Of a stretch of 64,000 nucleotides of DNA, positions 38,689 through 54,650 are shown piece by piece (the first letter of the stretch is position 1; each line of letters opens with the position of its first letter). The translations under genes and the position numbers were made by a program. This stretch comes from Sulfurospirillum diekertiae (lineage in GTDB: Bacteria > Campylobacterota > Campylobacteria > Campylobacterales > Sulfurospirillaceae). The stretch covers positions 1,302,001 to 1,366,000 of the forward strand of contig NZ_CP023275.1 of the NCBI RefSeq assembly GCF_002309535.1, in the 5' to 3' direction. Under the pieces are notes generated by a model. It saw only the letters and a program-made list of their open reading frames with translations, was not told the DNA's origin and did not search any database.

Positions 38689-39279
38689 GTGGATAAAAAA
38701 ATTCGAAAAAGTGAAAAAATTTTGGATGCAGCATTACTGCTCTTTTCAACACGAGGTTTTTACGCCACTACAATTCCTGATATTGCAAAAGCTATGGGGA
38801 TGAGTGTTGGAAATCTCTACAATTATTTTTCTTCCAAAGAGATTCTTGCTAAGGAAATCATTAAATACTCTTCCGATATTTTGGGTGCTGCAATACGTAC
38901 CGTCAATGAAGAAGAAGGGAGTGCGAAAGAAAAAATACGTAAAATCGTTGCGATTTATTTTGAAATGGCAACCTCTAAACCACAGCATATTAATTACTTT
39001 CTACGTGTCTATCTTGCGAATAAAGAGGTTTTTAAAGATGGTTGCGAAGGGATGCTCTGTGTCTCTTCTTTTGTGACAGAACTGATGATTTTTTTTGAAG
39101 AGGGCGTTGCCTCTGGTGAGCTTCGAAACCAAGATTTTTTCTCAGCATTTGGACTGTTTATGGGCTATCTTGGTGGATTTGTTTTTCTCAATGGTGAAGG
39201 CGTCTTGGAAAAAGATCTTAATTATTACGTCGATGATATTGCGTTGAATATTTATAACGCACTCAAAAAGAATCAATGA
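38689..39279 (+). CDS. TetR/AcrR family transcriptional regulator
   Basis: A 196-residue regulator. N-terminal helix-turn-helix: KILDAALLLFSTRGFYATTIPDIAKAMGMSVGNLYNYFSSKEIL (split: recognition helix is MSVGNLYNYF). The C-terminal part is a helical ligand-binding domain. GTG start with AAGGA 8 bases upstream. Its stop overlaps the ATG of the hydrogenase small subunit (ATGA), so it is the first gene of a tetR-hupS-hupL operon and is likely to control it, possibly by autorepression through AT-rich sequence in the 106-base gap before it. The ligand is unknown. Confidence 0.9.
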   Translation: MDKKIRKSEKILDAALLLFSTRGFYATTIPDIAKAMGMSVGNLYNYFSSKEILAKEIIKYSSDILGAAIRTVNEEEGSAKEKIRKIVAIYFEMATSKPQHINYFLRVYLANKEVFKDGCEGMLCVSSFVTELMIFFEEGVASGELRNQDFFSAFGLFMGYLGGFVFLNGEGVLEKDLNYYVDDIALNIYNALKKNQ

Positions 39280-41540: not shown

Positions 41541-41658
41541 ACACTTTTTATCTTCTTTCTTTGTTACATTTTTACTCTATTACTTTAAATTGCACTTAAT
41601 ATTGTTTGTTTTCTGCTGATTGTGAAACGTTTTTTGATTTAATTCTAAGTGAATAGTC

Positions 41659-41692
41659 ATTCAGGTAAATAACTATTGTCTATTTACTGAAT
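41659..41692 (+). promoter_or_regulatory. Inverted repeat in the hydA leader
   Basis: ATTCAGGTAAATA and TATTTACTGAAT are complementary over 12 bases with one bulged G, separated by 9 bases. The element ends 46 bases before the hydA ATG. It may be an RNA hairpin in the leader or an operator for a dimeric regulator; nothing in the sequence decides between these. Confidence 0.5.
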
Positions 41693-45370: not shown

Positions 45371-45910
45371 TTGAAAGTGTTGATTTTAGGCATTGGCAAT
45401 GTGATGTTCTCCGACGAAGGCGTCGGAGTTCATCTTTGCCGTCTTGTTGAACAAAAATATGCGTTTTCTTCTCCCGAACATACCCTTACCTTTATTGATG
45501 GTGGTACACTAGCGGAGCGTTTAATTCCCATTATAGCTGAGTATGACTATGTCATTGTATTGGATTGTGTTGACACAAGAGATGGCGAAATTGGAGATGT
45601 TTATTTCTTCGATTTTGAAAATGTTCCCAATACGATCACATGGCAAGGAAGTGTTCATGAAGTCGAAATGCTTCAAACACTGAATATGATGGATATGGTA
45701 GGAGATCGTCCTCCTACGAAAATTATTGGTATAATTCCAGAAGTTATTGAAGATACAACGCTACAGCTTACAGATGCTATCATAAAAGGCAGTGGTATTA
45801 TGGAAAATGTTTTACTAAAACATTTGAGTGAACTTGGATTTACGTATCAGCAAATCAGTGATATTGACATCCAAAGTGTGGCAAATACGTCCTGTTTGGG
45901 GGATCGATGA
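45371..45910 (+). CDS. hydD: Hydrogenase maturation protease
   Basis: A 179-residue HybD/HyaD-type endopeptidase that trims the C-terminus of HydB after nickel insertion. Start region VLILGIGNVMFSDEGVGVHL contains the conserved Glu/Asp nickel-sensing residues; the second Asp is in VLDCVDTRDGEIG and the His in SVHEVEMLQTL. The start is a TTG at 45371 preceded by AAGAGAG. It overlaps hydE by 4 bases. Confidence 0.93.
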   Translation: MKVLILGIGNVMFSDEGVGVHLCRLVEQKYAFSSPEHTLTFIDGGTLAERLIPIIAEYDYVIVLDCVDTRDGEIGDVYFFDFENVPNTITWQGSVHEVEMLQTLNMMDMVGDRPPTKIIGIIPEVIEDTTLQLTDAIIKGSGIMENVLLKHLSELGFTYQQISDIDIQSVANTSCLGDR

Positions 45911-47580
45911 TTTTAGCATTTGAATTTAATTATATATCACATAACGGTATTTTAGAAAATTTATTGAAAGAGATTGCAAATGATTTTGGTATCGTGCATA
46001 AAATTATTCGTAAAGAATCTATTGTAACACTCTTTGTAGAAGCAGATGAAGTTCGTTTAGGCACTTTTGCGGACACTCTTTCTTCTTCACTGCCTCTGTC
46101 TATCTTTTTTAAGTCTTCCAGTGTTGAAGTTTTGGAAAGCATGCCCGATGATGAGGAAACAGTGCCATCCATGGCGTATACCGTTGAATTTACACCTAAA
46201 ATTTTAGCTTCAGTGGATACACTAAATTCTCCTCAGTATCTCTCTCCTTTTGTCATTGCACCAAAAGATACGTCCATTCATCTTTTTCATGAGGGGAAAA
46301 ATCTTTTACATGTAAACACGGCAGAAGGCTATGAATCGCTTTATGAAAAAGTTTCTGAACTTATTGCCACAGGTGAAAATGTAGCCATTCAAACGAAAAA
46401 TGGTCACTTTGTTTTTGGTAAAATTGAAAACATCTCTGCATGTTCTCATATTGTATTGCCTGAAGTGATTGCAACGGATTTGTCGGTTGTTGAGCGTATG
46501 GTTGTGAGTAGAGAAAATGAGATCAAAGCGCTTGCTTCTTTAGAGCGCCCTTCTATTCGTTTTAAAGTGAATGCGCTGTTTGCGCAAAAAGAGATTTTGA
46601 AAGAATCTCGCGTGATGTTAAGGCTTGCAGATGATCTTTTCTTGTATCAACTCTCTAAGCGACTTTTTGCAAAAGGTGTTCATTTCCTTTTTAAAGCTTC
46701 ACTTAAAGAGTGTCAAAGCCTATACAGTGTCGATTTTGAACAACCTTTAAAAGCACTAGAGCCACTCGTGGTAAGTGTTCTGGAAAATGGTACTATTTTA
46801 ATTGTTCAGGGTACAAGTTATGCTTCTGATGCACTCAAAGGAAGTTTGAAAAAATTTGATGAACCTTCTCATGCCGCATTCGCTTCTATTTTGCAAGAAC
46901 ATAAGCTTTTTGATACAGCATTGAGCTGTTTTTATTTTAGTCGAAGCCATAATGATCGTGTCATGCATTATTCTAAAGAAAATGGCATGCTCAATCTTGT
47001 GGAGATTTTATTGCCACGTTCATTTGCTGAACTTTTTGCCGAAATTGAGAGAAGTAGTCCTAGTGCTGAGCGTTTGGTCGCGAGTTATAAAGAGCAGTTT
47101 CCTGAGTTGTATGAAAAAGCGATTCATACGGCTATTCCAGACACATTACCTAAGAGTATTTATTCCCTTTGGAAAATTGTCGCAATCGTACTGGGAATTA
47201 GCGACGATTTTGATCGTGCTGCTGAACAACTCATTGAAAATGCCGAAGATTTTGGTGGTCAAAAAGGTCCACGTATTGACTACTATTTGGAAAAAGAGGA
47301 TGCACTCAGTTCTGATTTGAATTATGTTAGATTACTTCGCAGTGGTATGAGTTACAAACTCGCTGGAACGGACACGATAACATTGAGTTTTGGTTGTATG
47401 GAAAGCCTCTCTTTTTTCCTCTCAGATATGGCTGATTCTCACAAAGATAATCTGACTTCAAATAAAATAGCCTTTTGTGGTTCCCTTTTTGGCTATAAAC
47501 GTTTTACAGAAATGCTTTCTAAAAACATCAAGCCAAATCATACGATCTGCTTGAATAAAGAATTGCCGATTGATCAGTAA
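45907..47580 (+). CDS. hydE: HydE-type hydrogenase accessory protein, degenerate HypF-like
   Basis: A 557-residue protein in the position of Wolinella hydE, a gene needed there for hydrogenase formation. The C-terminal section (NKIAFCGSLFGYKRFTEML, then HTICLNKELPID) lines up with the end of HypF (LGGGVFQNRTLMEQIL ... FPLQLAIND) encoded next door, and a SGLLIE-like region is absent. The N-terminal part is only loosely like an acylphosphatase/YrdC set. No zinc-finger CxxC repeats and no HxxxH motif are seen, so carbamoyl transfer is unlikely. One palindrome copy at 46305-46316. Confidence 0.75.
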   Translation: MILAFEFNYISHNGILENLLKEIANDFGIVHKIIRKESIVTLFVEADEVRLGTFADTLSSSLPLSIFFKSSSVEVLESMPDDEETVPSMAYTVEFTPKILASVDTLNSPQYLSPFVIAPKDTSIHLFHEGKNLLHVNTAEGYESLYEKVSELIATGENVAIQTKNGHFVFGKIENISACSHIVLPEVIATDLSVVERMVVSRENEIKALASLERPSIRFKVNALFAQKEILKESRVMLRLADDLFLYQLSKRLFAKGVHFLFKASLKECQSLYSVDFEQPLKALEPLVVSVLENGTILIVQGTSYASDALKGSLKKFDEPSHAAFASILQEHKLFDTALSCFYFSRSHNDRVMHYSKENGMLNLVEILLPRSFAELFAEIERSSPSAERLVASYKEQFPELYEKAIHTAIPDTLPKSIYSLWKIVAIVLGISDDFDRAAEQLIENAEDFGGQKGPRIDYYLEKEDALSSDLNYVRLLRSGMSYKLAGTDTITLSFGCMESLSFFLSDMADSHKDNLTSNKIAFCGSLFGYKRFTEMLSKNIKPNHTICLNKELPIDQ

Positions 47581-49789
47581 ATCTCGTCTGATTTATCATA
47601 TCGAAGGTATTGTCCAAGGGGTTGGTTTTCGCCCCTTTGTCTATACACTGGCTATACGTTTTCATTTACAAGGGTTTGTGCTCAACAATTCTAAAGGTGT
47701 CATCATTGAGGTAGAAGGATTTCAAGAGAGCCTTGAAGCGTTTGAATTGGCTTTGTTTAAAGAACTTCCTCCTCTTGCTCGCGTTGATTTTTGGCAAAAA
47801 AAGATGATTACATGTAAAGATGATACACACTTTGAAATTCGCCAAAGCGATGAAGTAAGTACGAAATCTTCTCTTGTGTTACCTGATATGTCTATTTGTG
47901 ACGATTGCCTGAAAGAGCTGCATGATCCAAACAACAGACGCTACCACTATTTTTTCATTAACTGTACACATTGTGGACCTCGCTATTCCATCATTAAAAC
48001 CGTTCCGTATGATCGTCCTTATACGTCAATGCAGCCTTTTCCTATGTGCGAAGCATGCCAAAGTGAATATACAAATCCCCTTGATCGTCGTTATCATGCT
48101 CAACCCATTAGCTGTTCAAAATGCGGACCAACTCTTTTTTTACGTAACATTGATGGAGAACTTTTAGCAACAAATGAAGAGGCGATTGTAAAATTAGCGA
48201 ATTTGATTAATGCTGGGTACATCGTAGCACTCAAAGGTATGGGTGGTTTTCATCTCATCTGTGATGCCACAAATGACACGGTGGTAGCAAGCTTGAGAGA
48301 GCTTAAACATCGACCTTCGAAACCGTTTGCTGTTATGTTTAAAACTATAGAAGCGATCAAAGAAGAGTGTAGGATAAGTGCTCAAGAAGAAGAGGGTATT
48401 TGCTCTCTGCTTCGCCCGATTGTTCTAGTAAAGCGCAATGCAAAGGTTTCTAAAATTAGCTCACTGATAGCACCTCGTATAGATCGCCTTGGCGTTTTCT
48501 TACCTTATACACCTTTACATGTAATGCTTTTTGAATACCTTAAAAACCCTATTGTGGCAACCAGTGCCAATCGCTCGGGTGAGCCGATTATCAGTGATGC
48601 AACTGTTTTACAGCAAAAGCTCAACGATGTTGTTGAGTATTATCTGGATTACAACCGTGCAATCGTCAATTCCAGTGATGATAGTGTTTTACAGTACCTT
48701 GGCGATAAAACGCTTTTGATGCGTTCTTCGCGTGGTATTGCTCCAAAGAGCTTTCGTGTTGATTCAACGGATGAGCGAAAAATCTTAGCCGTAGGAGCAC
48801 ACCAAAAAAATGCCATTGCGATTTATCTCAACCATCAAATTATTATCAGTCCTTACATTGGTGATTTGGATAATATCGCCTCGAATGAACTGTTTGAAAA
48901 GATGATAGAGAGTTTTTCACGATTTTACGATTTTACGCCCGATCTTATCGTTGGCGATCTACACCCCAATTATGTTTCAACACAGTGGGCGAAAAAGCAA
49001 AACATCCCTTTTGTTCAGATACAACACCACTATGCGCATATTCTCTCTGCTATGTGCGAGCATAAACTCAATGAAAAAGTATTGGGCATCGCTTGGGATG
49101 GTACGGGGTATGGAGATGATGGAACCATCTGGGGTGGTGAGTTTTTAGTGTGTGATCAAAGTGGTTATGAACGTGTTGCTTCGTTCGAACCATTTGCTCT
49201 TTTAGGTGGAGATGCGAGCATTAAGGAAATTAAACGTATTTTAGCCTCGCTTCTATGGGATGTATTGGGTGATGAGGCTGATGCGTTGTTATTAGATTAT
49301 TTTGATGAAAAGTCACTCAAACGTCTCCAACAAATTTACACCAAAAAAATTCATTCACCTTTATGTTCATCAGTGGGAAGACTCTTTGATGCTGTCGCAG
49401 TTTTATGTGGAATGGAAGGGAACGTAAGTTATGATGGAGAAAGTGGCTTGCTTATCGAAGCGCTGTATGATCCTTCAATTACGCAGAGCTATACATTTGA
49501 AATAGACGATAAAATCATTCGTTATAAACCTATGTTTGTTCAAATGCTTCAAGATCATGAACCACGCCTGATTGCTTCCAAATTTATCAATACATTGGTC
49601 GAAATGGCTCTTACGATAAGTCATCGTTACACTTATCCAATCGTACTTGGAGGAGGAGTGTTTCAAAATCGCACACTCATGGAACAAATACTTCAAAATG
49701 TCACACAACCTCTCTATTTTCCGTTACAATTAGCAATCAATGATGGCGGAATTTGTGCTGGACAGATCTACAAATCACTTCAAAAGTAA
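47570..49789 (+). CDS. hypF: Carbamoyltransferase HypF
   Basis: A 739-residue maturation factor that makes the thiocarboxamide precursor of the cyanide ligands, with HypE. Domains in order: acylphosphatase (YHIEGIVQGVGFRPFVYTLA, 10-90), zinc-finger region with paired CxxC (CDDC, CTHC, CEAC, CSKC; about 105-185), YrdC-like (200-380), Kae1-like carbamoyltransferase with HHYAH near residue 483 and LGGGVFQN near 700. TTG start at 47570 inside the hydE end. Two palindrome copies, both in frame. Confidence 0.95.
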   Translation: MISKSRLIYHIEGIVQGVGFRPFVYTLAIRFHLQGFVLNNSKGVIIEVEGFQESLEAFELALFKELPPLARVDFWQKKMITCKDDTHFEIRQSDEVSTKSSLVLPDMSICDDCLKELHDPNNRRYHYFFINCTHCGPRYSIIKTVPYDRPYTSMQPFPMCEACQSEYTNPLDRRYHAQPISCSKCGPTLFLRNIDGELLATNEEAIVKLANLINAGYIVALKGMGGFHLICDATNDTVVASLRELKHRPSKPFAVMFKTIEAIKEECRISAQEEEGICSLLRPIVLVKRNAKVSKISSLIAPRIDRLGVFLPYTPLHVMLFEYLKNPIVATSANRSGEPIISDATVLQQKLNDVVEYYLDYNRAIVNSSDDSVLQYLGDKTLLMRSSRGIAPKSFRVDSTDERKILAVGAHQKNAIAIYLNHQIIISPYIGDLDNIASNELFEKMIESFSRFYDFTPDLIVGDLHPNYVSTQWAKKQNIPFVQIQHHYAHILSAMCEHKLNEKVLGIAWDGTGYGDDGTIWGGEFLVCDQSGYERVASFEPFALLGGDASIKEIKRILASLLWDVLGDEADALLLDYFDEKSLKRLQQIYTKKIHSPLCSSVGRLFDAVAVLCGMEGNVSYDGESGLLIEALYDPSITQSYTFEIDDKIIRYKPMFVQMLQDHEPRLIASKFINTLVEMALTISHRYTYPIVLGGGVFQNRTLMEQILQNVTQPLYFPLQLAINDGGICAGQIYKSLQK

Positions 49790-49866: not shown

Positions 49867-50280
49867 ATGGATAAAATTATTCGTTTTAGTGTTTCACTTC
49901 CAGAAAAACTTTTAGAAGAGCTTGACAAAAAAGTCGATGCTCAAGGCTATGCTTCACGTAGTGAATTTACCAGAGACTTAATTCGCGAGAAAATCGTAAA
50001 AGATGATTGGCAAGATGATAACAGCGATGTTATAGGTGTTTTGACAATGATCTATACGCATCATCAAAATGAGCTCGTGCAGAAGATTTTGGAAATTCAA
50101 CATGATGCAAAAATACATATTATGTGTAATACCCACGTACATGTAAGCCATGAAAATTGCCTCGAAACCATTATGGTGACGGGAAAAGTTTCTGAAGTGA
50201 AAGACTTTGCACAAAAGATTGCAGGGCTTAAAGGGGTTAAATTCTCCAAACTTGTTGAGGCCTCAATTCCCGCTTCATAA
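49867..50280 (+). CDS. nikR: Nickel-responsive regulator NikR
   Basis: A 137-residue ribbon-helix-helix repressor/activator. N-terminal DNA-binding part [21 protein letters not shown]-terminal ACT-like nickel domain with the four ligands His79, His90, His92 (THVHVSH) and Cys98. Its presence inside the hyd-hyp island suggests nickel-dependent control of hydrogenase or nickel uptake genes. A 77-base AT-rich gap precedes it (own promoter possible); the in-frame His-Val codons give a partial palindrome at 50138-50145. Confidence 0.95.
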
Positions 50281-50282
50281 TC

Positions 50283-50294
50283 TTTACATGTAAA
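50283..50294. repeat. TTTACATGTAAA palindrome forming the stop codon of the transposase-like gene
   Basis: Extends to a perfect 18-base palindrome ATCTTTACATGTAAAGAT. It starts 3 bases after nikR and, read on the minus strand, gives Tyr-Met-stop for the transposase-like gene. Confidence 0.85.
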
Positions 50295-50967
50295 GATTTT
50301 TCTTCCATAGCGTCTCTAAAATGAGACGCTGTTCTTCTTGTGTATAATTAAATTTAAATTCCGCTTCTTTAAGATAATAGATAAAATTCTCTTTACTCAC
50401 GCCTTTAAAGTGATCCAGCCAGCTCTCTAAAAATTTCCAAAAGCGTGTTAAGGCGTTGTCAAAACTCTCGTAATGTGCTACTTTATGCTGGTTAAGATAG
50501 CGCGCATAGGTCTCTTTTTCGATGGAATTTTCATCTAAATTTTTCAGGTGTGCAAATTGATCTGGCAGTAAAAGAGTGTGAATGGAGTCGCCATACACCA
50601 TACCTAAAATACCGATACCATCGAAAAGATATCTATTTTTTCTTCTTTTACACGTTGGAAGGTAATAGTATTCATCGTATTGTGAAAACGTCTGTGTTTG
50701 TCCTGCATAAAGAGCTTCACTATGACTTATCAGTAAAAGGCGCAATTTTTGATATTTTTTTGCGATGGTAAGATAGTTCAATCCTAAAAGTGTAGCACAT
50801 TCATACGCACTGTTATTATCGATCAAACACTCCAAAATAGCCATTTCTTGTGCATACTTTACATAGCTAAATGTTCGTTTACATGTAACGCATCGGCATT
50901 GCGTTTTAGAGACGAAGTAAAGCGCTTTGTTCCCGCAAAAAATGCACTGCTTTTGATCTGTTTTCAT
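50284..50967 (-). CDS. Degenerate IS1595/ISXO2-type transposase homologue within the hydrogenase cluster
   Basis: A 227-residue protein: N-terminal zinc ribbon (C8-x2-C11 and C26-x2-C29), a helix-turn-helix (about 48-78), then a region like the ISXO2 DDE domain: DEYYY at 98-102 for DESYF, GIGILGMVYGD for the next strand, and HFKGVSKENFIYYLKEAEFKFN for HGVSxxHLxRYLDEFxFRFN. Where active enzymes have NxxExFW it reads NALTRFW, so the catalytic Glu is lost. I saw no terminal repeats or target duplication. It probably no longer transposes and may be a DNA-binding regulator. Runs opposite to its neighbours; two palindrome copies mark its ends. Confidence 0.65.
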   Translation of the reverse strand: MKTDQKQCIFCGNKALYFVSKTQCRCVTCKRTFSYVKYAQEMAILECLIDNNSAYECATLLGLNYLTIAKKYQKLRLLLISHSEALYAGQTQTFSQYDEYYYLPTCKRRKNRYLFDGIGILGMVYGDSIHTLLLPDQFAHLKNLDENSIEKETYARYLNQHKVAHYESFDNALTRFWKFLESWLDHFKGVSKENFIYYLKEAEFKFNYTQEEQRLILETLWKKNLYM

Positions 50968-51032: not shown

Positions 51033-51038
51033 TATAAT
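51033..51038 (+). promoter_or_regulatory. Candidate -10 element for hypBCDEA
   Basis: TATAAT 30 bases before the hypB ATG, in the 100-base gap between the divergent transposase-like gene and hypB. No good -35 at the standard distance, as is common in Campylobacterota. Confidence 0.45.
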
Positions 51039-51067: not shown

Positions 51068-51919
51068 ATGTGTAAAGATTGCGGTTGTTCAATTACTCCT
51101 ACTCAATGGTCAGCAGCGCATGCGCATGAACACGATCATGATGGTCACACACATAGTCATTCGCATGATCATGACGACCATACCCATCACGATCATCCTC
51201 ACGCACATGATCATGATCACCATGAACACAAAAATCATGATGAAATTCATGCTAATCCACAGTTAAATGATAAAAAAACCATTGCTGTCATTACGAAGAT
51301 TTTGGATGCGAACGACACGCAAGCATCGCACAATAGAGCGCATTTTGAAGAGCATGGTGTTTTGGCGATCAATCTAATGAGCAGTCCAGGAAGTGGAAAA
51401 ACGACACTTTTGGAAGCGACGATCGATACCAAACAGATCAAACTAGCAGTTATTGAAGGCGATCTTGAAACCAATCAAGATGCTGATCGTATCACCGCAA
51501 AAGGGGCATTAGCGCATCAAATCACCACAGGACAAGCATGTCATTTGGATGCGTTTATGGTGCACGAAGGGCTTCATCATTTACCGATTGATGGGCTTGA
51601 TGTTGTCTTTATTGAAAACGTGGGCAATCTCGTCTGCCCTGCCAGTTACGATGTGGGAAGTCACCTGAATGTCGTGCTTCTCTCCGTACCAGAAGGCGAT
51701 GATAAACCGGCTAAATACCCCGTCATGTTTCGCAGTGCCGATCTATTTTTAATCACGAAGTGCGATTTGTTACCACATTTTGATTTTAGTGTTGAAAAAG
51801 CGATTCGTGAAGCACGCAAACTAAATCCAAAAGTTGATGTCATCGAGATAGACAGCAAGTCTGGCAAAGGAATTGATCAGTGGATCAACTACCTTAAAAT
51901 GAAAAAAGCATTGAGGTAA
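51068..51919 (+). CDS. hypB: Hydrogenase nickel incorporation GTPase HypB
   Basis: A 283-residue GTPase that delivers nickel to the hydrogenase precursor with HypA. The N-terminal CKDCGC high-affinity nickel site is followed by a His-rich stretch (about residues 18-60, many His-Asp repeats) that can store nickel. P-loop SSPGSGKTT near residue 99; the rest follows the HypB G-domain (ENVGNLVCPASYD for the metal site; TKCDLL for the guanine motif). First gene of hypBCDEA. Confidence 0.96.
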   Translation: MCKDCGCSITPTQWSAAHAHEHDHDGHTHSHSHDHDDHTHHDHPHAHDHDHHEHKNHDEIHANPQLNDKKTIAVITKILDANDTQASHNRAHFEEHGVLAINLMSSPGSGKTTLLEATIDTKQIKLAVIEGDLETNQDADRITAKGALAHQITTGQACHLDAFMVHEGLHHLPIDGLDVVFIENVGNLVCPASYDVGSHLNVVLLSVPEGDDKPAKYPVMFRSADLFLITKCDLLPHFDFSVEKAIREARKLNPKVDVIEIDSKSGKGIDQWINYLKMKKALR

Positions 51920-51921
51920 TT

Positions 51922-52191
51922 ATGTGTTTATCCATACCTTCTAAAGTCATCGAAATTGACGAAAATAATTATGCAACCGTTGATACTATGGGTGTTAAGC
52001 GTAAAGTAACGCTTGATTTGATTAGTGAGCCTGTGAATATTGGCGATTATGTCCTTATTCACGTGGGATTTGCTATGAACAAGATCAGTAAAGAACATGC
52101 AGAAGATAGCATCGCCGCTTACAATGAGATTGCAGAAGCGATGCGAGAAGGCGAGATCAGTGATGAAGAAGGAAATAGCAACTATGTTTGA
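51922..52191 (+). CDS. hypC: Hydrogenase maturation chaperone HypC
   Basis: An 89-residue HypC/HupF protein beginning MCLSIPSKVIEID with the essential Cys2. It holds the Fe(CN)2CO unit with HypD and escorts it to the large subunit. The beta-barrel pattern and GDYVLIHVGFAMNKIS are typical. Two bases separate it from hypB; 8 bases overlap with hypD. Confidence 0.95.
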   Translation: MCLSIPSKVIEIDENNYATVDTMGVKRKVTLDLISEPVNIGDYVLIHVGFAMNKISKEHAEDSIAAYNEIAEAMREGEISDEEGNSNYV

Positions 52192-53308
52192 AGTGGATCT
52201 CATTGAAGGATTTCGTGACCCTGAACATATGAAAGCTTTGGCGGCACTGATTAAAAAAGAGTGCAAATCCAAAATCAACATTATGGAAGTGTGTGGCGGT
52301 CATACGCATACGATTATGAAGTTTGGACTTCCACAAATTTTACCAGAGCTCATCGAATTTGTTCATGGTCCTGGGTGTCCTGTATGTATTATGCCAAAAG
52401 AACGGATTGATCATGCGATTGCATTAGCCAGTATGCCCAATACGATTTTAGCAACACTAGGCGATATGATAAGGGTTCCAGGCAGTAAAACCTCTTTGCA
52501 AAAACTGCGAGCAGAGGGTAAAGACATTCGCTCGTTGTATTCGCCATTGGATGTCATTAAAATTGCGCAGGAAAATCCTGATAAAAATGTGGTCTTTTTT
52601 GCGATTGGCTTTGAAACCACCACACCGATGAGTGCGGTTTTGATGCAACAAGCTATAGCACATAAACTGACCAATGTCTTTTTTCACATCAACCATGTCA
52701 CCGTGCCTGAAGCGGTAGAGGCGATTATGGGCGATGGCAATGCACTCATTGATGCGTTTCTTGGACCTTCCCATGTGAGTGTCATTACGGGCTATAAAAT
52801 CTATGAACCGATTGCAGAGAAATACCATACACCGATTGTCGTTGCTGGGTTTGAACCCACCGATGTGATGGAGTCTGTTTTACGCATTGTACGTCAAATC
52901 AATGAGGGTAAAAGCGTTGTTGAAAATGAATATGCCAGAGCCGTTTCACGCGAAGGCAATCTCAAAGCGCAGGAACTTATCAATACCTATTTTGAAAAAC
53001 GTGATCACTTTAGATGGCGCGGTATTGGTGATATCCCCAAAAGTGCACTGAAACTAAGAGCTGAATATGCTGCTTATGATGCCGAGATTGTGTTTGATGC
53101 CATATTGCCTAAAACAGAACTGAATGACCATAAAATGTGCATTTGCGGTGACATTCTCAAAGGACGTGCCAAACCCTTTGACTGTAAAGTATTTGGTAAG
53201 GCGTGCACCCCAACGAACCCGATGGGCTCGTGTATGGTTTCAAGCGAAGGGGCATGTTCTGCCTACTTCAAATATGGAAAACTCAATCTCAAAGGAGCTA
53301 GAGCGTGA
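52184..53308 (+). CDS. hypD: Hydrogenase formation protein HypD
   Basis: A 374-residue [4Fe-4S] protein on which the Fe(CN)2CO centre is assembled. Conserved: MEVCGGHTHTIMKFGL, HGPGCPVCIMP and GFETTTPM, and the Cys-rich C-terminus (MCICGDILKG, FGKACTP, GSCMVSSEGACSAYF). The start is the ATG at 52184, with AAGGA 9 bases upstream; upstream in-frame ATGs lie within hypC and would lengthen the protein beyond the family. Confidence 0.95.
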   Translation: MFEVDLIEGFRDPEHMKALAALIKKECKSKINIMEVCGGHTHTIMKFGLPQILPELIEFVHGPGCPVCIMPKERIDHAIALASMPNTILATLGDMIRVPGSKTSLQKLRAEGKDIRSLYSPLDVIKIAQENPDKNVVFFAIGFETTTPMSAVLMQQAIAHKLTNVFFHINHVTVPEAVEAIMGDGNALIDAFLGPSHVSVITGYKIYEPIAEKYHTPIVVAGFEPTDVMESVLRIVRQINEGKSVVENEYARAVSREGNLKAQELINTYFEKRDHFRWRGIGDIPKSALKLRAEYAAYDAEIVFDAILPKTELNDHKMCICGDILKGRAKPFDCKVFGKACTPTNPMGSCMVSSEGACSAYFKYGKLNLKGARA

Positions 53309-54309
53309 GTAAAAAGATACTTCTCTCTCATGGAGGTGGCGGTGAAGAGACCCAAAACCTCATTAAAGAGCTATTTTTTAAACATTTTGATAATGAAATT
53401 TTACTGCGTATGGAAGATGCTGCAAGCCTTGTGATGAACGACCGTAAAATTGCTTTTACAACGGATTCGTTTGTCGTTTCACCGCTTTTTTTTAAAGGTG
53501 GAAACATTGGTAAGCTTGCCATTGCGGGAACAGTCAATGATCTTTCGATGATGGGTGCGAAGCCTCGTTATATGACCTGTTCGTTTATGATCGAAGAGGG
53601 GTTTTTATATTCTCATCTTGAAGAGATTGTTATCGCGATGCGTGATGAGATGGCTAAAAGCGGCGTTAAAATTGTTGCAGGCGATACTAAGGTTGTACCA
53701 AAAGGTGGGGTTGATGGACTTTTCATTAACACGGCGGGTATTGGTGAAATCATGTATGAAAATATTTCGGCGCATAACTTAGAAGAGGGTGATTGCATCA
53801 TCGTTTCCAATGAAATTGGTAATCACGGTGCCTGTATTTTGGCAACCCGTGAAGAGATAGAGCTGGAGAGCAATCTTCAAACAGACTGTGCAAGTTTATG
53901 GAAACCTGTTGAAGCACTCATTGATGCAGGTGTAAAGATTCATGCTCTAAGAGATGCCACCAGAGGAGGACTTAGTGCGGTTTTAAATGAATGGGCTGAG
54001 ACTTCAAAAGTGTGCATTGAAGTCGATGAAGCAAAAATTCCTGTGGCGCAAGAGGTCAAAGGTATTTGTGAACTTCTTGGTTTCGAGCCTTATGAATTTG
54101 CCAATGAGGGAACCATGGTCATTTGTTTGCCTCAAAGTGAAGCGCAAAAAGCACTAGAGGTGCTTCAAAATTTCCCTGAAACCACCAAATGTGCCGTGAT
54201 AGGAAAGGTAAGCAATGCCTTTACATGTAAAGTAGTTTTACATACTCCTTGGGGGTCGGAGCGCTTTTTAGAACCGCCTAAAGGTGAGTTACTTCCGAGG
54301 ATTTGCTAA
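53305..54309 (+). CDS. hypE: Hydrogenase expression/formation protein HypE
   Basis: A 334-residue ATP-dependent dehydratase that turns the HypF-carried carboxamide into thiocyanate on its C-terminal Cys, which is present (PRIC at the end). AIR-synthase fold: LSHGGGGEETQNLI, TDSFVVSPLFF, AGTVNDLSMMGAKP. GTG start overlapping the hypD stop. A palindrome copy at 54220-54231 encodes Phe-Thr-Cys-Lys about 30 residues before the end. Confidence 0.95.
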   Translation: MSKKILLSHGGGGEETQNLIKELFFKHFDNEILLRMEDAASLVMNDRKIAFTTDSFVVSPLFFKGGNIGKLAIAGTVNDLSMMGAKPRYMTCSFMIEEGFLYSHLEEIVIAMRDEMAKSGVKIVAGDTKVVPKGGVDGLFINTAGIGEIMYENISAHNLEEGDCIIVSNEIGNHGACILATREEIELESNLQTDCASLWKPVEALIDAGVKIHALRDATRGGLSAVLNEWAETSKVCIEVDEAKIPVAQEVKGICELLGFEPYEFANEGTMVICLPQSEAQKALEVLQNFPETTKCAVIGKVSNAFTCKVVLHTPWGSERFLEPPKGELLPRIC

Positions 54310-54650
54310 TGCATGAGTTTTCCATCGTCAATGCTCTTTTAGAGATGTGCGACAAAAATGCAAAAGAGCACAATGCAACAAAAATTACGAAAGTTGAAAT
54401 TAAAATTGGAAAACTTAGTGGTGTAGAACCTCATTTATTGCAAACGGCTTTTGATACCTTTAAAGAGGAGACCATCTGTGCTGAGGCAGAATTTATTGTG
54501 CATCTGCAAGAGATTGTTATTCATTGTGAAAATTGTCACAATGAAGCAACTCTCACACACAATGAGTTTGTTTGCCCCACTTGTAGCAGTACTGATTTAC
54601 GTGTCATCGATGGCGAAGAGATGTACCTCATGCATCTTGAAATGGAGTAA
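54309..54650 (+). CDS. hypA: Hydrogenase nickel incorporation protein HypA
   Basis: A 113-residue nickel chaperone. N-terminal nickel site MHEFSIV (His2) and a zinc site with two CxxC pairs (CENC and CPTC) at about residues 74-93. Ribosomes can restart from hypE (TAATG). The ATG at 54309 is favoured over an upstream TTG because nickel binding needs His at position 2. Confidence 0.95.
   Translation: MHEFSIVNALLEMCDKNAKEHNATKITKVEIKIGKLSGVEPHLLQTAFDTFKEETICAEAEFIVHLQEIVIHCENCHNEATLTHNEFVCPTCSSTDLRVIDGEEMYLMHLEME

Follow-up and report, generated by a model that had tools for sequence, protein, structure and literature searches.

An IS1595-type transposase with a lost active site as a candidate regulator of nickel and hydrogenase-maturation genes in Campylobacterota

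Introduction

The 64,000-nucleotide stretch of the Sulfurospirillum diekertiae genome analysed here (the window; contig NZ_CP023275.1, positions 1,302,001 to 1,366,000) contains a hydrogenase island that spans from the hydrogenase small subunit gene (41739) to hypA (54650), and within it lies a gene that resembles the transposases of IS1595 elements. What is such a gene doing among the genes for hydrogenase maturation? Free-living Campylobacterota oxidise hydrogen, a process of importance in vents and sediments. At the hydrogenase locus of S. multivorans, regulatory proteins have been described as absent except for NikR, and expression of the membrane-bound hydrogenase as constitutive; that report never uses the word "transposase" (Kruse et al., PMC5357620). 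In a comparative survey of nickel use, more than half of the organisms with the nickel transporter NikABCDE lacked NikR, which implies NikR-independent control (PMC2667541).

We use TNP for the protein encoded at 50284-50967 on the minus strand of the window and for its orthologues. Our preferred reading, to which we assign a probability of roughly 0.7, is that TNP is a domesticated DDE transposase that activates a nickel and hydrogenase-maturation regulon; its binding, its activating effect and its cue are inferences.

Results and discussion

The original prediction described a single intact gene between nikR and hypB, running against the direction of the surrounding maturation island, and the predicted ORF lies exactly there (Table 1). 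Its direct flanks are nikR and hypB; beyond them come hypF on the upstream side and hypCDEA on the downstream side. A 557-aa ORF of the window (45907-47580), located between hypF and the gene of the hydrogenase protease, has no Pfam or NCBIfam match above threshold; its place next to hypF is conserved across the genus and family, and it shows weak similarity to the HypF C-terminal domain.

Table 1. Features of the TNP locus in window coordinates
Feature	Position	Strand	Remarks
TNP, domesticated IS1595-type transposase, candidate regulator	50284..50967	-	Intact 227-aa ORF; residues 8-29 zinc ribbon, ~35-88 predicted helix-turn-helix region, 96-207 truncated RNase H-like domain
nikR, known nickel regulator	49867..50280	+	Convergent neighbour of TNP
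hypB	51068..51919	+	Heads the putative target operon; divergent from TNP
hypBCDEA	51068-54650		Putative target operon
hypF	47570..49789	+	Flank adjoined by TNP in many other families too
Candidate operator TCTTAGTTATTTTTAGGAAAAA	50975..50996	-	Gene-ward reading TTTTTCCTAAAAATAACTAAGA; 27.7 bits
hypB -10 box TATAAT	51033..51038	+	36 bp past the operator; composite match G000:C1:1352978-1353038

Compared as a single sequence, TNP matches IS1595 models only weakly and below their curated cut-offs (NF033547, E 3.5e-7, 30 against 75 bits; PF12762, E 0.005, 17 against 27 bits), whereas a profile of the TNP family aligned by hhalign to the genuine IS1595 proteins of the phylum with 99% probability (E 3.8e-18), which establishes homology to proteins with the DDE_Tnp_IS1595 domain. 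The weak IS1595 hits were the only transposase- or regulator-type matches; no NikR_C or RHH match was found in TNP, and a PHROGs search returned weak unnamed matches only. The homology to IS1595 transposases (ISXO2/IS1016-like) extends over the helix-turn-helix and RNase H-like domain, the larger members also carry the zinc ribbon, and both groups share a C-terminal block of the type GV.KENF..YLKEAEF.FN.

That TNP had kept the zinc ribbon, the helix-turn-helix and the C-terminal block, but not the catalytic Glu before FW, was part of the original prediction and agrees with the family alignment. In 36 diverse members, the four ribbon cysteines (C8, C11, C26 and C29), R76 and E99 are invariant, and the block L199-K-E-x-E-F-x-F-N207 is invariant or mostly so. 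Glu occupies the position before FW (T174 in the window protein) in merely 4 of 83 homologues, the first catalytic Asp (D98) is replaced by Glu in 33 homologues and by Asn in one, and no conserved Asp aligns at the place expected for the second. The AlphaFold model (pLDDT 90) predicts the ribbon, a helical DNA-binding region (helices 35-49, 54-61 and 65-88, with high confidence), three strands and from there on only helices; between helices 149-167 and 172-184 it has no strand where the second Asp normally sits. Across the TNP family the DDE/DDN triad is thus broken, and the predicted structure agrees; because this triad is a defining feature of the transposase family, we do not count TNP as one of its members. 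A DNA-binding domain appears to be retained, although its helix-turn-helix is a prediction only. Foldseek found no PDB match to the model at E <= 0.001; VIA-align matched it to Hermes (Z 5.6), retroviral integrases (~4-4.7) and, at low Z, TrpR, which is compatible with, but not decisive for, an RNase H-like protein with a helix-turn-helix.

The window genome holds one TNP copy, and terminal inverted repeats flanking the gene were looked for without success. The predicted lack of repeats therefore stands, and near-identical copies with repeats elsewhere in the genome, which would have refuted the prediction, are absent. Genuine IS1595 copies of the same phylum, in contrast, are multi-copy and have clear GGCTCAAG... 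ends, so TNP, at its fixed locus, lacks the features of a mobile element. Such genuine elements were seen in Campylobacter- or Helicobacter-like genomes (L282, L283, L284 in G212; L287, L288 in G278), with ends GGCTCAAGATAAGTTAA / GGCTCAAGACAACTTAAGC and in several copies, some of them degraded.

Two unusual relatives were also seen. One genome encodes, besides the TNP at hypB, a second full-length TNP adjoining a NikK-type nickel ECF operon (L172, G242:C2), possibly a sub-functionalised duplicate. An Arcobacter-like genome with a normal TNP also encodes a very divergent relative without zinc ribbon (L187, G327:C1:1867563-1868060; 184-aa ORF), possibly another domesticated copy.

TNP was found in 43 of 60 relatives, nearly always as one copy, and at 55 loci in GTDB genomes, all named ones belonging to Campylobacterota. 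Our phylum sample comprised 298 genomes, 78 with TNP (in long or contig-end form) and 220 without, and it shows TNP spread across the free-living members and missing from nearly all genomes that have lost hypD. Two families, f11 and f14, which we infer to be the Campylobacter- and Helicobacter-like groups, lack TNP; outside them, 77 of 93 hypD-bearing genomes encode it, against 1 of 14 that lack hypD (p 4e-8). Families f4, f6, f9, f10, f16, f17 and f19 have TNP and, save in one genome, no NikR, while many members of f11, f14 and f15 have NikR and none has TNP. The two proteins occur together only in Sulfurospirillaceae, the family of the window, and in one other sampled genome. This complementarity reaches p 8e-6 over genomes, uncorrected for relatedness; the sampled genomes are not phylogenetically independent.

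The gene is under purifying selection. Its dN/dS within the genus, a comparison proposed with the original prediction, is 0.08-0.18, above that of NikR and HypB and far below 1, and TNP distances co-vary with those of HypB (Mantel r 0.78), HypD (0.73) and HypF (0.78).

Orthologues scattered without hyp linkage would have spoken against a role at this locus, and the opposite is observed: in 86 of 88 distinct TNP loci a hyp, hydrogenase or nickel-uptake gene is no more than 10 kb away. TNP usually points away from a nickel gene (hypB, NicO, CbiM, NikK (DUF4198), NiCoT or HupE), mostly across a gap of 70-160 bp. Some Arcobacter- or Sulfurimonas-like loci have no hyp genes nearby and have a nickel ECF transporter operon instead; the common denominator of the neighbourhoods is nickel.

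An asymmetric 22-bp site, with the consensus TTAGTCCTAAAAATATATAAGA when read towards the target gene, lies most often in these gaps. When the TNP-hypB gaps of the genus are aligned, a block next to the start of TNP and the -10 box of hypB stand out as conserved, the rest being variable. A de novo search of 85 distinct upstream regions recovered TCTTATnTATTTTTAGGACnAA (23 bits; log-likelihood 500, against 60-69 for shuffled sequences), and scanning the fetched loci gave essentially one strong site per locus, the operator in Table 1 being the sole strong copy in the window. Visual inspection of the genus alignment had suggested two direct copies plus an inverted arm, which were rejected, only the 22-bp core being conserved beyond the genus. 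Where TNP is displaced, the motif remains 55-104 bp before cbiM, nicO, nikK or hypB (one locus has 192 bp), and two loci have it before hydS. Nickel, hyp or hydrogenase genes follow 61 of the 69 distinct strong sites, and 57 of the 69 have a -10-like hexamer downstream at a distance of exactly 36 or 37 bp. This arrangement is found at hypB, cbiM, nicO, nikK (DUF4198), hupE and nikA-like genes, including genes unlinked to TNP, and places the centre of the site ~59 bp upstream of the transcription start of the nickel genes, in a single orientation. In many loci the site is also 1-30 bp before the start codon of TNP itself.

To see whether this operator descends from a terminal repeat of the element, the real repeats (GGCTCAAGATAAGTTAA and variants) were mapped and aligned with it. 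The idea was rejected: the best pairing of a genuine repeat with the Sulfurospirillum operator gave p 0.04, but p was 0.33 for the mean score and 0.98 for the family consensus.

As some of the fetched loci were chosen for closeness to TNP, the fairest statistic on targets comes from searching whole genomes. A loose pattern of the site exceeded its reversed-pattern control only in genomes with TNP (118 against 64 matches; 8 against 16 in genomes without TNP outside f11 and f14, and 59 against 76 in 82 of the genomes of these two families), and its matches fell 65-76 bp before the start codons of NikK, NikA-like and FecB-like transport genes. A shorter pattern, CTAAAAANAACTAAGAAA, was too weak for genome-wide use (46 matches against 79 in the control). 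The composite pattern, which joins the site, a 36/37-bp spacer and the -10 box, matched 28 sites in 26 genomes, every one of them with TNP, against one site for its reversed control. This corresponds to 26/78 genomes with TNP and 0/220 without (p 2e-17), or 26/78 and 0/29 when f11 and f14 are set aside (p 8e-5), with 52 TNP genomes lacking an exact match. All 28 sites precede nickel genes (hypB, cbiM, nicO, nikK or nikA-like), and many of the targets lie in trans to TNP: 1.07 Mb away before a nicO next to hypB (G206), 1.15 Mb before nikK (G245) and 0.5 Mb before a nikA-like gene (G274). In the window genome the only perfect site is the one before hypB, and ten more matches with 1-2 mismatches are at about control level (8). 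The comparison between genomes with and without TNP is partly phylogenetic, because the motif was learnt on TNP-bearing loci. As far as sequence can tell, a shared operator stands before genes of related function and co-occurs with a candidate regulator; that TNP is the protein bound there is inferred.

A second shared element was noticed at these promoters. The palindrome TGAATNNNNATTCA lies just downstream of the -10 box in 30 of the 69 promoters with the TNP site (0.08 expected from shuffles), including loci of other families such as L073, L077 and L165. Its presence indicates that another regulator acts here too and suggests that the regulon has a repressor-type control as its second input.

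The mechanism that we propose would begin with the domestication of an IS1595-type transposase early in the history of Campylobacterota, in which the DDE site was lost and the zinc ribbon and helix-turn-helix were kept. TNP would then bind the 22-bp site as an asymmetric reader, ~59 bp upstream of the transcription starts of hypB and the nickel-uptake genes, and an asymmetric site would fit the descendant of an enzyme that recognises a single transposon end. The geometry resembles that of a class I activator, because the site is asymmetric, has a single orientation, is rigidly spaced from the -10 box and is centred near -59; bound TNP may accordingly contact RNA polymerase and aid initiation. 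In this way TNP would switch on nickel import and the insertion of nickel into NiFe hydrogenase. In the window genome the target would be hypBCDEA and probably the TNP gene itself, since the same site abuts its divergent start, which makes autoregulation probable. Nickel shortage or nickel demand would be the most likely cue, which is inference only, and in most free-living families TNP would act where NikR is missing. Against this proposal it can be said that TNP has no obvious set of nickel ligands beyond the four cysteines, that many of its conserved residues are structural, and that the operator is unlike the terminal repeats of its genuine relatives.

The locus could be read more simply, as an insertion sequence, either decayed or still mobile, that came to lie in the hyp island by chance. 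Homology to IS1595 transposases and the label "transposase", which TNP orthologues carry in public records, favour this, but it can hardly be reconciled with a single-copy gene that is intact in nearly all genomes, has a broken triad and no terminal repeats, evolves at the dN/dS given above and keeps its locus across many families, while genuine IS1595 copies in the phylum are repeated and bounded by GGCTCAAG; we regard it as practically ruled out. A more serious alternative, though still improbable, is that the site belongs to some other regulator and TNP is merely linked to it, with a different role in nickel use or maturation, for example as a protein partner. There are no binding data for TNP, and the TGAATNNNNATTCA palindrome points to further regulators on these promoters. 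The strict co-occurrence of site and TNP gene (the 26/78 and 0/220 above), the invariant zinc ribbon and predicted helix-turn-helix, and the position of the site, most often within TNP's own divergent promoter region, weigh against it.

Somewhat less improbable is that TNP does regulate these promoters, but as a nickel-dependent repressor with NikR-like logic or as a dual regulator. Metal-bound NikR represses nickel uptake in well-studied bacteria (PMC2667541), and where the site directly precedes the TNP start codon a bound protein would block expression. The constant distance and single orientation at the nickel genes are, however, the geometry of an activator, and a repressor would not need them. 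We therefore keep activation by TNP as the preferred reading.

As an activator, TNP would join two known kinds of protein, nickel regulators and mobile-element proteins turned regulators. NikR (ribbon-helix-helix, PF08753) has the same inferred job, the control of nickel uptake and NiFe-hydrogenase genes, and is its neighbour in the window, but the two are unrelated in fold and family, and NikR sites are dyads, unlike the asymmetric TNP site. TldR proteins, nuclease-dead repressors of bacteria derived from TnpB, have likewise lost catalysis and become regulators; they differ in origin, coming from the RNA-guided TnpB of IS200/605 elements. The transcription factors FHY3 and FAR1 of plants share the same history with a different element family, MULE (PMC13306707). 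In the open-access literature we found no bacterial transcription factor described as descending from a DDE transposase and nothing relevant that links IS1595/ISXO2 with hydrogenase. A 2022 review of mobile elements recruited by prokaryotes discusses helix-turn-helix regulators and antitoxins and, in its passages matched by keyword, names no DDE transposase turned transcription factor (PMC8987985). On balance we lean, with less assurance than for our preferred reading, towards TNP representing a new class of bacterial transcription factor, domesticated deep in Campylobacterota as a nickel and hydrogenase-maturation activator that does the job of NikR in members without it and uses an asymmetric site at a fixed distance. 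If true, this would provide a clear example from bacteria of a DDE transposase become transcription factor, with a regulon readable from sequence, and a specific, testable answer to the question of NikR-independent control that has been hidden under the label "transposase".

The original prediction had envisaged an undescribed regulator of hyp/hyd expression. It is supported by the operator-like motif before hypB and nickel-uptake genes, which tracks TNP, with binding still inferred, but its scope needs correcting: in Sulfurospirillum no TNP site precedes hydABC, and a candidate operator there was rejected (best score below zero). The theme of the regulon is nickel instead (hypB, CbiM, NicO, NikK, HupE and NikA-like genes). 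The missing hydABC site agrees with the constitutive expression of the membrane-bound hydrogenase of S. multivorans (PMC5357620), and on both grounds the effect of TNP in Sulfurospirillum may be limited to the hyp genes. The region upstream of hydS has a feature of its own, a perfect palindrome, TGAATAGTCATTCA, at 41650-41663 in the window, 76-89 bp before hydS, and a TetR-type gene (38689-39279; PF00440) lies 2.5 kb upstream. Gene and palindrome are both present in the related loci L320, L321, L322 and L327 and both missing in L323 and L324; in L326 the palindrome is there, but the stretch fetched contains no TetR gene. This palindrome is probably the binding site of the TetR protein.
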